From: an uncultured Anaeromyxobacter sp.
GTDB taxonomy: Bacteria; Myxococcota; Myxococcia; Myxococcales; Anaeromyxobacteraceae
Assembly: GCA_903855945.1 (NCBI GenBank)
Contig: CAIOAK010000085.1
Span: 1 to 55,663 of the forward strand
Reading direction: 5' to 3'
DNA: 55,663 bases
The translations under genes were made by a program, and so were the position numbers. Within the stretch, counting starts at the first letter, position 1. The number at the start of each line of letters is the position of its first letter. The notes below the pieces were generated by a model. That model was not told the DNA's origin, did not search any database, and saw only the letters and a list, made by a program, of their open reading frames with translations. This document shows positions 1,554-33,027 of this stretch, piece by piece.

Positions 1554-2192
1554 CTACAGCTCGGCTCCGCCCACGAACGGGTTGCTCCGCCGCTCCTCCC
1601 CGATCGTGCCGGCAGGGCCGTGACCCGGGAAGAAGCGGACGTCGTCCCCCAGCGGGAAAAGCTTCTCCCGGATCGAGCGGACGAGCTCGGCCGAGTTCCC
1701 GCCCGGGAAGTCGCTGCGCCCCACCGAGCCGACGAAGAGGGTGTCGCCGGTGAAGAGTGCCTTGTCCGCCGGGAACCACAGGCAGACGCTCCCCGGGCTG
1801 TGGCCCGGCGTGTGGATGACCATCCCCTCGTGACCTCCCACGCGCACCACGTCCCCGTCGGCGAGCGGGCCCGAGACCTCCGGCGTGCGGACCTCTCCGA
1901 AGCCCATGCCGGCGGCCTGAGACGGCAGGGCCCGGACGAACGGGGCGTCGCCCGGGTGGATGCGAAAGGTGGCACCGGTTCGGCGCCGCAGTTCGTCCAC
2001 CCCGACGATGTGATCGACGTGGCCGTGGGTGGCGAGCACCTGTCCGATGCGCAGGTCGGGCTGGGCGAGGCCGAGCACGCGGGCGGTCTCGCCGCCCGGA
2101 TCGATGACGGCCGCGTCGCCCGTCTCGCCGTCCCCGACGAGCCAGGTGTTCTCGGCGAAGGGGCCGACGACCGCCTGGCGGATGGTCAGCAA
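1554..2192 (-). CDS. Metallo-beta-lactamase-fold hydrolase (glyoxalase II-like)
   Basis: The 212-residue protein has a complete binuclear metal site: THGHVDH near residue 56, HTPGHSPGS near 128, FTGDTLF near 146, and a C-terminal GHGP histidine. The size and the absence of a C-terminal glutathione-binding domain fit the short YcbL/hydroxyacylglutathione-hydrolase-like group, which hydrolyses thioesters in the cytosol; the true substrate is unknown. The start is a TTG two bases downstream of the erpA-like stop, so the two are probably one operon. No good Shine-Dalgarno is visible, so translation may depend on coupling. Its stop lies 3 bases from the convergent fabI stop. Confidence 0.85.
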   Translation of the reverse strand: MLTIRQAVVGPFAENTWLVGDGETGDAAVIDPGGETARVLGLAQPDLRIGQVLATHGHVDHIVGVDELRRRTGATFRIHPGDAPFVRALPSQAAGMGFGEVRTPEVSGPLADGDVVRVGGHEGMVIHTPGHSPGSVCLWFPADKALFTGDTLFVGSVGRSDFPGGNSAELVRSIREKLFPLGDDVRFFPGHGPAGTIGEERRSNPFVGGAEL

Positions 2193-2194
2193 GG

Positions 2195-2578
2195 CTACGC
2201 CGTGAAGGAGGAGCCGCAGCCGCAGGTGTTCTTGGCGTTCGGATTGAGGAACTTGAACCCGGCGCCCTGGAGCCCCTGCACGTAGTCCACGGTGACGCCC
2301 TGCAGGTACATGGAGCTCATCGGGTCGACGAAGAGCTTCAGGCCGCCCATCTGATCGAGCACCACGTCGCCTTCCTTGGCGTCCTTCTCGAAGTCCATCG
2401 TGTACTGGAATCCCGAGCAGCCGCCGCCGGCGACCCCGATGCGGATCCCGTGCCCCTTGAGCCCCTCCTGCTCGATGGCCGCGAGGACCATGTCGACCGC
2501 CTTCTGGGTCAGGGTCACGAAGGGCTGGACGTCGGCTGCGGGGCTCTGGGTAGGGGCTGCGGTGGTAGCGGTTTCCAT
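2195..2578 (-). CDS. erpA: A-type iron-sulfur carrier protein (ErpA/IscA/SufA family)
   Basis: This 127-residue protein should receive Fe-S clusters from a scaffold and hand them to target enzymes. It has the three family cysteines: C54 in GGGCSGF and C119/C121 in the C-terminal CGCGSSF. About 20 residues, rich in A/T/P and without conservation, precede the A-type domain, which begins at VTLTQKAVD. A good Shine-Dalgarno (GAGGAG) precedes the ATG. A perfect 7-base-arm inverted repeat at 2605-2620 lies just upstream and resembles the core of the SUF operator in this window, so shared iron-sulfur control is possible. The SUF machinery itself is encoded at 39755-45948. ErpA, IscA and SufA cannot be told apart with certainty by motif alone. 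Confidence 0.85.
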   Translation of the reverse strand: METATTAAPTQSPAADVQPFVTLTQKAVDMVLAAIEQEGLKGHGIRIGVAGGGCSGFQYTMDFEKDAKEGDVVLDQMGGLKLFVDPMSSMYLQGVTVDYVQGLQGAGFKFLNPNAKNTCGCGSSFTA

Positions 2579-2604
2579 TCGGGCTCCTCGGTGAAGATGT
2601 TCGT

Positions 2605-2620
2605 GGACCCCTCGGGGTCC
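2605..2620. promoter_or_regulatory. Inverted repeat upstream of erpA, possible operator
   Basis: GGACCCC-TC-GGGGTCC is a perfect 7-base inverted repeat 27-42 bases before the erpA start. It shares the GGACC...GGTCC arms of the SUF operator at 39671-39701, but with a 6-base instead of 5-base inner spacer. It could also be a leader hairpin. Confidence 0.35.
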
Positions 2621-2657
2621 GGGTGCTGGGAATCTTTAATCGACCCGACCGGTCCAG

Positions 2658-2673
2658 GCAATCGAGGTGTCAA
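2658..2673 (-). promoter_or_regulatory. Ambiguous promoter element upstream of erpA
   Basis: On the minus strand a perfect TTGACA (2673-2668) lies just beyond the end of the SDR gene. The overlapping TGACAC-N5-TTGC resembles a sigma-54 -24/-12 pair with one mismatch in the key GG. No matching -10 for a sigma-70 reading is seen at 17 bases. Only weak support exists for either reading. Confidence 0.2.
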
Positions 2674-2682
2674 CCTCCCGGG

Positions 2683-3387
2683 TCAGCCGGCGACTCCCAG
2701 GTGCCGGCCGCCGTCCACGGGGACGGTCGCCCCGGTCACGAAGGGGGAATCGGCGAGGAAACGCACGGTTCGAGCGACGTCCTCCGGGGCGCCGACCCGG
2801 CGCAACGGGATGGTCCGGGCGAGCCGGCGCCGGGCCGCTGCAGTGTAGCTCTCCGGCCAGAGGACCGTTCCGGGGGCCACTCCGTTCACCCGGACGGTCG
2901 GGGCGAGCTCGAGCGCCAGCGCCTCGGTCACCGCCCGGAGCGCCGCCTTGGACGCCCCGTAGGCGGAGTACGAGCGCCAGGGAACCATCGCGCCACCCAC
3001 GTCGAGCACGTTCACCACCGACCCGCCCGCGCGCCGGAGCAGCGGGAGCAGCGCGCGGGTGAGGAGCAGCGGGGCGCGCGCGTTGAGCGCCATCTGGGCG
3101 TCGAAGAGCGCCGCGTCGGTGTCCTCCAGGGCGCGCCGCTCGAAGAGGGCCGCCCCGTTCACCAGCAGGTCGAGCCGGTCGAACCGCTTCCGGAAGGTCC
3201 GGGCCAGGCCGGCGGGGCCTCCGGGGATGGACAGGTCGCCCCGGATGCCGAGGAGCGTGCGGGGCGGGCGGTGGGAGTGGAAGTGGGCCACCACCTGCCA
3301 CCCGTGCCGGGCGAGGTCGAGCGCGATGGCGCGGCCGACGCGGGTGCCGCCTCCCGTGACGAGCGCCACCCGCCGGCGCGCGGGCAC
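2683..3387 (-). CDS. SDR oxidoreductase with pteridine-reductase signature
   Basis: The 234-residue protein is a classical short-chain dehydrogenase with NAD(P) loop TGGGTRVG at residues 11-18, NGAA near 82 and the active-site YGASK near 147. The loop matches TGx3RxG, the signature that marks pteridine reductase/FolM-type SDRs, so reduction of dihydropterin or dihydrofolate is a reasonable guess; other SDR substrates are possible. It starts with GTG, separated by one base from the stop of the adenosyltransferase gene, indicating an operon and translational coupling. The conserved C-terminal PVDGGRHL motif is present, and length is normal for the family. Confidence 0.8.
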   Translation of the reverse strand: MPARRRVALVTGGGTRVGRAIALDLARHGWQVVAHFHSHRPPRTLLGIRGDLSIPGGPAGLARTFRKRFDRLDLLVNGAALFERRALEDTDAALFDAQMALNARAPLLLTRALLPLLRRAGGSVVNVLDVGGAMVPWRSYSAYGASKAALRAVTEALALELAPTVRVNGVAPGTVLWPESYTAAARRRLARTIPLRRVGAPEDVARTVRFLADSPFVTGATVPVDGGRHLGVAG

Positions 3388-29840: not shown

Positions 29841-30650
29841 TCAGCGCAGTCCGGCCAGGAGCACGACCAGCGCGACGACGCTGCCGGTGAGCGCGCCCCA
29901 TCCCACCCGACGCAGGCGGCTTGCGGGGACGCGCAGGCCGATCACTGTGAGTGAAGAGAGCGCCAGGGGAGCCACCGCCGCCGGGACGGTCCAGGGCGCG
30001 ATCCGGAGCGCGGACAGCGCGACCGCGATCCCCTGCAGGAGCAGGACCGCGCCCATCGCGGGGAGTCCCGGGTCCCGTGCCGGGGCCCGGGCGCGAGCGA
30101 GCACCACCTCGACCGCCAGCGTGGTGGCGGCGAATCCGAGGATCCAGGCGACCCAGGCCGCCGCTGCCGCGGCCACCGTCGCCCCGGCGGCCACCGCCAC
30201 CGGGAAACCGGCCGACGAGAGAGCGACCGCCACGGCCACCTCTCCCGCCACCGTGCGTTCCAGTTCCAGCCTCACGAGCAGCGCGACCACCGCCGCCAGC
30301 AACGGCGGGACCCCCGCGGCGAGACGGGCCGCCGGAGGGGAGAGGAAGAGTCCCGCTCCGGCGAGAAGGGTCGCCGCCGCCGCCAGGCGAAAGGCCAGGC
30401 GGACGGCGCGCGCCCCGTCCTCGTCCCGCGCCCGGCGGCCCCGACGGCCGGTGGCGACGAGGAGCGGCTCGTAGGCCAGGAATCCGGCGAAGGCGCCCGC
30501 TGCGAGAAGGAAGGCCGCGGGCCCCGGCCTCCCCAGTGCGAGCCCGCAGGCGAGGGGCATCGCGATCTGGCCGTAGGCGCCGTGCTCGTGCGGCAGGAGG
30601 TTGCGGCGTGCGGTCGCGGGCATGGGTTGGCGCGGAGCGCGCCCCCTCAT
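29841..30650 (-). CDS. YwiC-like membrane protein
   Basis: The 269-residue protein has 8-9 hydrophobic segments rich in A, V and L. Its N-terminus carries LLPHEHGAYGQIAMPL, the hallmark of the YwiC-like family (PxEHGAWG), followed by a helix pair and a long cytoplasmic basic stretch (TGRRGRRARDEDGAR). Function is not established. The ATG at 30650 overlaps the thioesterase stop (ATGA), giving translational coupling. An alternative ATG lies at 30623. It is the last gene of the phospholipase-thioesterase run. Confidence 0.85.
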   Translation of the reverse strand: MRGRAPRQPMPATARRNLLPHEHGAYGQIAMPLACGLALGRPGPAAFLLAAGAFAGFLAYEPLLVATGRRGRRARDEDGARAVRLAFRLAAAATLLAGAGLFLSPPAARLAAGVPPLLAAVVALLVRLELERTVAGEVAVAVALSSAGFPVAVAAGATVAAAAAAWVAWILGFAATTLAVEVVLARARAPARDPGLPAMGAVLLLQGIAVALSALRIAPWTVPAAVAPLALSSLTVIGLRVPASRLRRVGWGALTGSVVALVVLLAGLR

Positions 30651-31102
30651 CTCCTGCGGATGGCGGGCAGCTCCGAGAAGGGATCGCTCCGGGGTGCCGC
30701 CTGGAGCACCTCGGCGAGGTCGCGGGGCGGCGCCGTGGCCCGACGCAGCTCGAGGTCGATCCAGCCCCCCAGCACCGTGATCCGGGCCATCTCGGTCCCG
30801 TCCACCTTCCAGAGCCGATGGAGGAGCGACCAGCGGGAGGCATCGGGGGCGAGACCGGCCACGAGCGAATCGACGAGCACCTCCTCGCCGATGGAGGCCT
30901 CGCGCCGGTATTCGATCTCCTCCCGGAAGAGCACCGGGCCGAGCTGCAGCGACTGGAAGCGCTTCCAGGGGAAGCCGAGCGTCGCGAACATGGCCACGCG
31001 GGTGTCGGTGGCGTACTCGGAGAACGCGGTGTTGCGCATGTGGCCGTTCGCATCCGCGTCGGACCAGCGCACCACGAAGCGACGGGGGGCAGCGATGCTC
31101 AT
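30647..31102 (-). CDS. Acyl-CoA thioesterase, 4HBT hot-dog fold
   Basis: The 151-residue protein carries the 4-hydroxybenzoyl-CoA-thioesterase-type motif VVRWSDADANGHMRN, with the catalytic aspartate and the NxHxxN loop, at residues 10-24. It is followed by the long helix SEYATDTRVAMFATLG and the five-stranded sheet. It should hydrolyse acyl-CoA or acyl-ACP in the cytosol. Its ATG overlaps the stop of the phospholipase-like gene, and its stop overlaps the YwiC-like start (both ATGA). Co-expression with a secreted phospholipase hints at lipid-product turnover, but this is inference. Confidence 0.88.
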   Translation of the reverse strand: MSIAAPRRFVVRWSDADANGHMRNTAFSEYATDTRVAMFATLGFPWKRFQSLQLGPVLFREEIEYRREASIGEEVLVDSLVAGLAPDASRWSLLHRLWKVDGTEMARITVLGGWIDLELRRATAPPRDLAEVLQAAPRSDPFSELPAIRRR

Positions 31103-33027
31103 CGGGGCGGCGCCAGGTCGTCGCGGGAGCCGAAGAAGTAGCGTCCGTCGAACTGGGCGCGGAGGAAGAAGTTGTAGGAGGGGCCGATGGCCGCGTTCCC
31201 GAAGCCCTCGGGGAAGACGACCGGGCTCGTGAAGGGGATCTCCACGCCGAACCCGAACTGCAGGACCGTGGCGAAGACGAGCTGGGTCGCGAAGGTGCGG
31301 AACGGGGTCCACTCCAGGATGGGGAAGTTGAGCGCGATCGACCGCAGCTTCGCGGCGCCGTAGATCGACTGGGGCTCGGGGGGCGGCCCGACGGGGGTGA
31401 GGATGACCACGTCGGAGAGGTAGCCGTAGAGCACCGTGTCCACCTCCCGCCCGATGACGACCTGCAGCGTGCCCACGCCCACGGGGAAGCCCTGCTCGTA
31501 GGGGATGAGCCCGCCGCTCGCGGCGGCCACGCCCACCGACGACAGCGCGCTCGGCGAGACGAGGGCGAGGATCGGTCCGAGGAGCAGCATGTCTCCGGGG
31601 ATGAGCCAGAAGGGGAGCCGCAGGTCGAGCCGGAGGCCGGTGCGGGCGGGGACGCGCGGGAAGTAGGAACTCGTTCCGAGCACCGAGCACACGGGCCCGG
31701 CGTCGCAGGGGTTGGTCTGGGCCGACTGCATCGTGATGCCGGCGTCGACGAAGATGAGTCCGGTTCCCACCGACCCCGTGAGGCTCTCGGCGCCGAAGCC
31801 CAGGCGGATGCCGGCGGAGAGCGAGCCGTAGAACTGCGCGACGTCGGTGCCGAATCCGCCCCATCCCAGGTTTCCCGTGGCCGAGGCGAAGGCCCCCACG
31901 AACGGACCGAGCTCCTCGCGGAACCGGGGCAGGTGCACGTCCCCCTCGCCGCGCCCCGGCACGGGCATCGCCATGACCACGGTGGTGAAGTGGCGACCCA
32001 GCGTGTCGAGCCCGGCCACCGAGGGCTGGAGCTCCTCCTTGCAGGAGTCGAAGGCGAAGATCTCGGCGGCGGGCCGCCCGAACGCCGTCGCGAGCCGCCC
32101 CAGCTCGTCCCCGGGACGGAGCGCCGAGACGAGCTGCTCGAGGCTGCGCTCCAGCGCGGCGGAGGCGCGGCGCAGGTCCGCGGGGCGCATGTGGGAGTCG
32201 CCGAAGAGGATGGCGGGCTCGCCGCCCCAGGTGACGCTGTCGAACCCGAACTCGTTGTAGTAGTCGTGCGTCCCCTTGCGCCAGGCGTCGCTGCCCCAGG
32301 TGCCGACCACGTGCCCGGAGGCGTAGGTGTCCTCGAGCCAGTGGAGCGCGTAGCCCTCGGCCACGAGGATGCGGAGCGCCGCGGCGGGCCGCTCCGCCGG
32401 AGGCGGCGGGCTGGAGGCGTAGCGCTGCGCCAGCTCCAGAGCCGCCATGTGGTACTGGAGGTAGAGCCCCATCGCGTTCAGCGGCGCCCCCTCCTTCACG
32501 GCGTTGCGCATGTAGGTGCCGGCGTCGTTGTCGATCCGGGGGAGGAGGAAGTGGGAGTTGTTGGCTCCGGCGCGGCTCACGTACTCCGTGTCGGCGGCCT
32601 GCAGGTCCAGGTTCTGGACGGCGATGGCGGAGAGCATCTGGTCGCGGTCGGAGGCCTTCTGGAGGTTTCTCTTGGTCTCCGCTCCGATCCGGGCGACGTC
32701 CATGATCCAGGCGCTCGGCAGGGTTCGCTGGGCCACCTCACGCGGGCTGCAGGAGTGGTCGCCCGACATGGCGGGGAAGGCCGCGAAATCGATGCAACCG
32801 GGCTTGAGTCCCTGGTCGCCGGCGCTCGGCGAGGCGCAGAGCCGGGACGGGAGCGCCTTCCGGGCCTCGGCCCAGAGCGCGTCGAACACCTCCCGGTCGC
32901 CGGGGGGGAGCTGTTGCACCCCGGCCACCGCGATGTCGCGGTGCTCGGGGTAGATCCAGGCGGACGCCGTCCCGGGGAGGGCGGACAGGGCCAGAGCGGC
33001 CAGCCATGCCGCCGTCGAGGTGCGCAT
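31099..33027 (-). CDS. Secreted zinc phospholipase C-like protein with a barrel-like C-terminus
   Basis: The 642-residue precursor has a signal peptide ending in TASA, so the mature chain starts at W24, the N-terminal tryptophan that ligates zinc in bacterial phospholipase C and P1/S1 nucleases. Further likely ligands are H29, D90/H91, H159 in NSHF (as in B. cereus PLC), and H229, D233 and H239 in HWLEDTYASGH (H-x3-D-x5-H). H254 and E259 may complete the set. From about 340 on the sequence changes to alternating hydrophobic strands with many aromatics and glycines, ending in FNFFLRAQFDGRYFFGS-like strands (FFLRAQFDGRYFFG), which look like an outer-membrane barrel. Lipid or nucleic-acid hydrolysis is inferred. 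It overlaps the thioesterase by 4 bases. Confidence 0.78.
   Translation of the reverse strand: MRTSTAAWLAALALSALPGTASAWIYPEHRDIAVAGVQQLPPGDREVFDALWAEARKALPSRLCASPSAGDQGLKPGCIDFAAFPAMSGDHSCSPREVAQRTLPSAWIMDVARIGAETKRNLQKASDRDQMLSAIAVQNLDLQAADTEYVSRAGANNSHFLLPRIDNDAGTYMRNAVKEGAPLNAMGLYLQYHMAALELAQRYASSPPPPAERPAAALRILVAEGYALHWLEDTYASGHVVGTWGSDAWRKGTHDYYNEFGFDSVTWGGEPAILFGDSHMRPADLRRASAALERSLEQLVSALRPGDELGRLATAFGRPAAEIFAFDSCKEELQPSVAGLDTLGRHFTTVVMAMPVPGRGEGDVHLPRFREELGPFVGAFASATGNLGWGGFGTDVAQFYGSLSAGIRLGFGAESLTGSVGTGLIFVDAGITMQSAQTNPCDAGPVCSVLGTSSYFPRVPARTGLRLDLRLPFWLIPGDMLLLGPILALVSPSALSSVGVAAASGGLIPYEQGFPVGVGTLQVVIGREVDTVLYGYLSDVVILTPVGPPPEPQSIYGAAKLRSIALNFPILEWTPFRTFATQLVFATVLQFGFGVEIPFTSPVVFPEGFGNAAIGPSYNFFLRAQFDGRYFFGSRDDLAPPR

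Follow-up and report, generated by a model that had tools for sequence, protein, structure and literature searches.

A putative phospholipase C/P1 nuclease-like enzyme joined to a predicted outer-membrane beta-barrel belongs to an undescribed family present in several bacterial phyla

The analyzed window is a 55,663-nucleotide stretch of DNA from an uncultured Anaeromyxobacter sp. (contig CAIOAK010000085.1 of the assembly GCA_903855945.1). Its minus strand carries a complete gene (positions 31099–33027) that starts with ATG at position 33027, ends with a stop codon at 31099–31101 and encodes a protein of 642 aa. The start codon matches that of the genus-level homologues. The predicted product is composed of a signal peptide, a catalytic domain resembling phospholipases C (PLC) and P1 nucleases, a linker and an outer-membrane beta-barrel. 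The adjacent downstream gene (30647–31102, minus strand) encodes a 4HBT_2 hot-dog thioesterase, and the two overlap by ATGA (enzyme stop 31101–31099, thioesterase start 31102–31100). The preliminary description proposed co-translation of both genes. In Anaeromyxobacter the gene either overlaps the thioesterase gene by ATGA or directly precedes it. The link does not extend further: no thioesterase neighbour was found for homologues outside the genus or for paralogues within it.

Homologues of the protein (33–83% identity, full-length for most) were identified in Myxococcota, Acidobacteria, Ignavibacteria, Bacteroidota and Proteobacteria. A single scan of genome contigs yielded 39 loci, approximately 33 of them full-length or almost so, in Anaeromyxobacter, other Myxococcota, Acidobacteria, Ignavibacteria, Bacteroidota, Burkholderiales and Gammaproteobacteria. 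Since at least five phyla have full-length homologues, the gene is not a chance open reading frame of a high-GC window. The distribution of the family is broad yet patchy. The gene is present in 4 out of 4 Anaeromyxobacter genomes and absent from all of the 20 further Anaeromyxobacteraceae genomes that were searched, while near-full-length members occur in about 8 of 195 Myxococcota genomes and about 8 of 296 Bacteroidota genomes (the latter set takes in the genome on which it was centred). Two paralogues, sharing 55% and 38% identity with the protein, are encoded in the window's own genome. The cultured bacteria with a family member include the environmental Algoriphagus lutimaris. At one locus (L043, positions 1981–3214) the barrel is partly missing and the frame is shifted, which reflects either gene decay or a fault in the assembly; this locus was considered as a stand-alone catalytic domain, a reading rejected on account of the barrel remnant and the shifted frame. 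No useful Pfam, NCBIfam or PHROGs model was found for the protein, sequence searches of the PDB returned chance matches alone (VP35 and 5-FTHF cyclo-ligase), and no description of an enzyme-barrel fusion of this type was found in open-access papers. The protein is a member of an undescribed and unnamed family that is present in several bacterial phyla.

The predicted signal peptide (residues 1–23; 32959–33027, minus strand, as are all features of the gene given below) ends with TASA, directly before Trp24 (32956–32958). A, G or C directly precedes this tryptophan in 36 of 36 aligned homologues, and 33 of them have A, G, S or T at -3. Trp24, which is the predicted mature N-terminus and a predicted zinc ligand by analogy to S1 nuclease (PMC5201275), is invariant in an alignment of 42 family members (paralogues included). 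The same applies to His29 (32941–32943), residue 6 of the predicted mature protein; to Asp146, a candidate general base and ligand, and His159 within the NNSHF motif (32551–32592); to His229, Asp233 and His239 of the H-x3-D-x5-H motif HWLEDTYASGH (32311–32343); and to His254 (32254–32268 with the residues that follow it). The tryptophan after the predicted cleavage site and the ordered motifs on which the preliminary description based its secreted, zinc PLC-like enzyme are conserved in all 42 members.

The defining feature of the PLC/P1 superfamily is a set of nine zinc ligands, made up of a single Trp, three Asp and five His (PMC4144908). S1 nuclease has the PLC/P1 fold; its mature chain begins with a Trp that takes part in the zinc cluster, and an Asp serves as the general base (PMC5201275). 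Judged by motif order and spacing, which is how the ligands were assigned residue by residue, eight of the nine ligand positions are invariant and in the right order in all 42 sequences. Six histidines are invariant: five occupy the ligand-His places in order, and the sixth is His91 of an insert located between ligand groups 1 and 2 (Asp80 to His91; 32755–32790), in which Asp80, Asp90 and His91, the last two within a GDHS motif, are invariant. Distant relatives have a G-D-H or G-D-Y/F motif at a similar place. The ninth position (residue 258), at which the canonical acid follows the last histidine by four residues (His+4), is N in 31, D in 4, C in 4 and S in 3 of the 42 sequences. Asp255, adjoining His254, is invariant in all 42 and may stand in for the ninth ligand. 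The predicted metal site is therefore PLC/P1-like with one departure. Because the third acidic ligand (His+4) is mostly replaced, the protein is described here as working like PLC/P1 enzymes (clan CL0368) and is not filed as a full member.

An AlphaFold2 model built with 36 aligned sequences (mean pLDDT 80.1, pTM 0.63) shows helices across residues 27–352 and strands across residues 373–631. The predicted catalytic domain (residues 24–302; 32122–32958) is all-helical. When the structures listed by Foldseek were re-aligned with VIA-align, the N-terminal part gave Z-scores of 8.5–9.1 with solved zinc PLCs, 8.5 with SmNuc1 and 7.4–8.0 with S1 nuclease, values of 7–9 being below the level that the tool calls safe for helical bundles. 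The superpositions on PLCs and S1/P1 nucleases comprised 153–183 residues at 3.8–4.8 Å. The evidence for a PLC/P1 fold provided by the model is moderate, and the two enzyme groups are tied in fold scores, so the list does not separate them. None of 36 members scored over the curated Pfam cut-offs for Zn_dep_PLPC (PF00882) or S1-P1_nuclease (PF02265), the two families for which the preliminary description had proposed an HMM search. Comparison of the catalytic domain with Myxococcota S1-P1 and Zn_dep_PLPC sets using hhalign gave probabilities of 2.4% and 0.6%, respectively, and routing the comparison through distant relatives gave no support either. The sole hint from a sequence profile concerned the first 31 residues of S1/P1 nucleases. 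As there is no Pfam match, the likeness is confined to motifs and fold. The protein probably functions in the manner of PLC/P1 enzymes and is filed in neither PF00882 nor PF02265.

Zinc PLCs of the Bacillus cereus type (PF00882) share with the family the mature N-terminal Trp, the five ligand histidines, the H-x3-D-x5-H motif and the all-helical fold; unlike them, the family has the insert with Asp80 and GDHS, a replaced His+4 acid and an outer-membrane barrel after the catalytic domain. S1/P1 nucleases (PF02265; e.g. SmNuc1 and S1) have in common with it the ligand set, the fold and W-x4-H at the mature N-terminus, a spacing in the analyzed protein that we take to resemble that of P1. In contrast to the predicted product of 31099–33027, these nucleases are soluble and have no membrane barrel.

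The catalytic domain is followed by approximately 300 residues rich in predicted strands, which the preliminary description had regarded as a large barrel-like domain. Structure prediction bore this out: residues 373–631 (31135–31911) are modelled as an outer-membrane beta-barrel both in the full-length protein, with Z-scores of about 10–11 to NspA, OmpA and OmpW, and when the C-terminal part was modelled alone (pLDDT 76.7, pTM 0.73; VIA-align Z 10.8 to NspA, 10.1 to OmpA and 9.9 to OmpW). The assigned strands are 373–389, 398–413, 424–434, 461–470, 520–534, 560–579, 584–600 and 617–631, with the short strands 541–546 and 555–560 taken as an outward hairpin. Under this assignment the modelled barrel is most likely 8-stranded, ten being the alternative count. 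Dyad hydrophobic alternation was detected in five of the eight strands (p < 0.05), with two more at 0.07–0.08; strand 560–579 showed none. The last strand (617–631; 31135–31179) contains an aromatic beta-signal with the family consensus FDWRYYF. Every complete full-length member has F-[DN]-x-[RK]-x-[YF] at its C-terminus or no more than about 10 residues from it; the chain ends at this motif in approximately half of the members and extends up to about 10 residues beyond it in the rest. An aromatic motif in the last strand is the expected signal for the BAM machinery. The 8-stranded proteins OmpA, OmpW and NspA share the barrel fold of residues 373–631 and the aromatic last strand. The barrel differs from theirs in a conserved helical hairpin of fixed length between strands 4 and 5 (residues 471–519; 31471–31617), predicted to be periplasmic, and to our knowledge none of the three carries a PLC/P1-type domain.

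The two faces of the modelled barrel differ in conservation. On the side of the catalytic domain, the turns 414–423, 471–519 and 580–583 are of fixed length and have pair identities of 0.52, 0.53 and 0.42, respectively. Of the opposite loops, L2–L4 vary in both sequence and length (pair identities of 0.25, 0.19 and 0.28), and the first loop has a pair identity of 0.40. Conserved periplasmic turns and variable outer loops are the usual pattern in outer-membrane proteins. With the turns conserved on one face and the loops variable on the other, the catalytic domain is therefore predicted to lie in the periplasm.

In four proteobacterial loci (L034, L035, L038 and L040) a gene for a phospholipase D (PLD)-like lipoprotein lies downstream (3') of the homologue. 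A PLD-like lipoprotein sharing 26% identity with the proteobacterial ones was also found in an acidobacterium (locus L016 of genome G195), and its domains score above the PLDc_2 cut-off. This acidobacterial protein (L016, 9884–11500) has both HKD-type motifs, and a putative GTG start of its gene overlaps the stop codon of the homologue. There are few PLD genes per genome in these bacteria, and adjacency by chance in two lineages is therefore unlikely, although many neighbours were inspected. The PLD-like neighbours point to lipids, the link being confined to part of the family. In Ignavibacteria, a Chlorobiota MAG and a Bacteroidetes MAG, DUF3943 genes lie close to the homologue (L049, 5943–7538; L023, 6008–7471; L024, 2–1285), and the end of a DUF2490 gene (L022, 7330–8004) overlaps the start of an ignavibacterial homologue.

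On balance, the reading favoured here is that of an outer-membrane-tethered, periplasm-facing PLC-like enzyme of lipid turnover, with zinc binding, orientation, substrate and role all being predicted. After export by Sec, the protein would be cleaved directly before Trp24; the N-terminus of this residue would then be free and, together with His29, Asp146, His159, His229, Asp233, His239 and His254, would bind a zinc cluster of the PLC/P1 type. BAM would insert the C-terminal barrel (probably 8-stranded) by means of its aromatic last strand, and the barrel would keep the catalytic domain in the periplasm, beside the inner leaflet of the outer membrane. Glycerophospholipids lie in this leaflet. 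Their zinc-catalysed phosphodiester hydrolysis, the most likely reaction, would yield diacylglycerol and a phospho-headgroup and serve lipid turnover or outer-membrane asymmetry, i.e. the trimming of the membrane from inside the cell envelope. Phospholipid is put forward as the substrate because of the PLD-like neighbours, in Proteobacteria and one acidobacterium, and the outer-membrane anchor; of the two roles suggested in the preliminary description, lipid remodelling fits these data better than predation.

Its main rival, which we consider improbable, casts the protein as an S1/P1-type nuclease or 3'-nucleotidase that is anchored in the outer membrane, acts in the periplasm and breaks down incoming nucleic acid for nutrients or defence. 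The ligands and the fold are common to S1/P1 enzymes (Z-scores of 8.5 for SmNuc1 and 8.0 for S1 are tied with those of the PLCs), the W-x4-H spacing is P1-like and the lone profile hint leads to these nucleases. PF02265, however, was not matched, in two lineages the neighbouring genes encode PLD-like lipoproteins, not nucleic-acid uptake functions, and an outer-membrane anchor is of obvious use for a lipid substrate but less so for a soluble one.

More doubtful still is an autotransporter-like barrel that carries the catalytic domain out to the cell surface for action on other cells or their lipids. The order of enzyme and barrel and a helix preceding the barrel (residues 340–352) are type V-like, and the 12-stranded beta-domain of the autotransporter EspP ranked first for the barrel by Foldseek E-value (7.5e-5). 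Against this, the barrel models with 8 (at most about 10) strands and aligns better with 8-stranded outer-membrane proteins (Z 10–11) than with NalP (Z 6.5), and the autotransporter domain (PF03797, 12-stranded) had no Pfam match. An 8-stranded barrel would have no channel for exporting a domain of 280 residues, and the conserved turns and helical hairpin lie on the catalytic-domain side, with the variable loops facing outward. Features of type Vd (PlpD-like) secretion were sought as well; neither patatin nor Omp85 was matched in Pfam, and the strands are too few. The enzyme of PlpD itself, formerly thought to be exported, is periplasmic (PMC11116518). Consequently, given the small 8-stranded barrel type and the conservation pattern, the alternative offered in the preliminary description, "outer-membrane-anchored or self-exported", is narrowed to the anchor, for which the barrel models and the beta-signal speak, and neither self-export nor a predation tool is supported, as the pattern puts the enzyme domain on the periplasmic face.

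Least likely of all is that the substrate is some other phosphodiester or phosphate of the envelope (for example phosphoethanolamine, the headgroup of lipid A or a polyprenyl-phosphate sugar), or that the changed ninth ligand has made the protein a catalytically altered relative. Most members have Asn, Cys or Ser in place of the His+4 acid, with Asp255 and GDHS invariant, so that the metal site may differ from that of known PLCs. The strict conservation of all other ligands, however, speaks for a functional multi-metal site.

The favoured reading, a tethered periplasmic phospholipase, has its closest parallels in proteins of other design. PlpD and FplA (type Vd) likewise combine an N-terminal phospholipase domain with a C-terminal outer-membrane barrel, the phospholipase being C-like and predicted in the present case. 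Theirs is a patatin serine hydrolase accompanied by a POTRA domain and a 16-stranded Omp85 barrel, whereas in the protein analyzed here the N-terminal domain has predicted metal ligands, POTRA is lacking and the barrel has about 8 strands. The patatin domain of PlpD is located in the periplasm, and its loss alters the lipid profile (PMC11116518). OMPLA (PldA; PF02253) is an outer-membrane phospholipase comparable in function, in which the barrel itself is the enzyme. PF02253 was absent from 25 of 25 related genomes searched, Myxococcota included. Replacement of OMPLA by the family was considered and set aside, since PF02253 is absent from relatives both with and without the gene and the comparison is uninformative.

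Somewhat more tentatively, the family may constitute a new class of outer-membrane enzymes, in which a metallo-phosphodiesterase of the PLC/P1 type, its activity being proposed, is mounted on a small outer-membrane barrel and faces the periplasm. If so, metal-dependent turnover of outer-membrane phospholipids would take place in several phyla, separately from OMPLA, PlpD and Mla, by a route partly coupled to a PLD-like lipoprotein. Few outer-membrane enzymes acting on phospholipids are known, and a barrel-tethered, metal-dependent one would add a means of lipid turnover, also in Myxococcota, which are among the lineages lacking OMPLA in the 25 genomes.

The family and its distant relatives are covered by no Pfam or NCBIfam model. 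Profile searches found the catalytic-domain portion in many Myxococcota proteins without a Pfam family, and in five such proteins that were scanned (from loci L093–L111) nothing exceeded the Pfam or NCBIfam cut-offs. An H-F-[LA]-x-D-x-[FW]-[AS]-x-G-H region is common in the Myxococcota proteins of these loci, several of which apparently have no signal peptide. Pfam and NCBIfam scans of the distant relatives gave no useful match. A second branch in Bacteroidota, represented by L132 and by proteins of the gut bacterium Parabacteroides distasonis (WP_211744399.1) and Hymenobacter (WP_270129398.1), shares the N-terminal domain (E of about 1e-20) but has a different C-terminal region, which appears strand-rich on visual inspection and has F or Y as its last residue. 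The loci of this branch are L134 (2429–4270; P. distasonis), L135 (2432–4207; Hymenobacter yonginensis) and L132 (886–2544). Where annotated, their products are hypothetical proteins, and the P. distasonis gene adjoins a DUF5686 gene.
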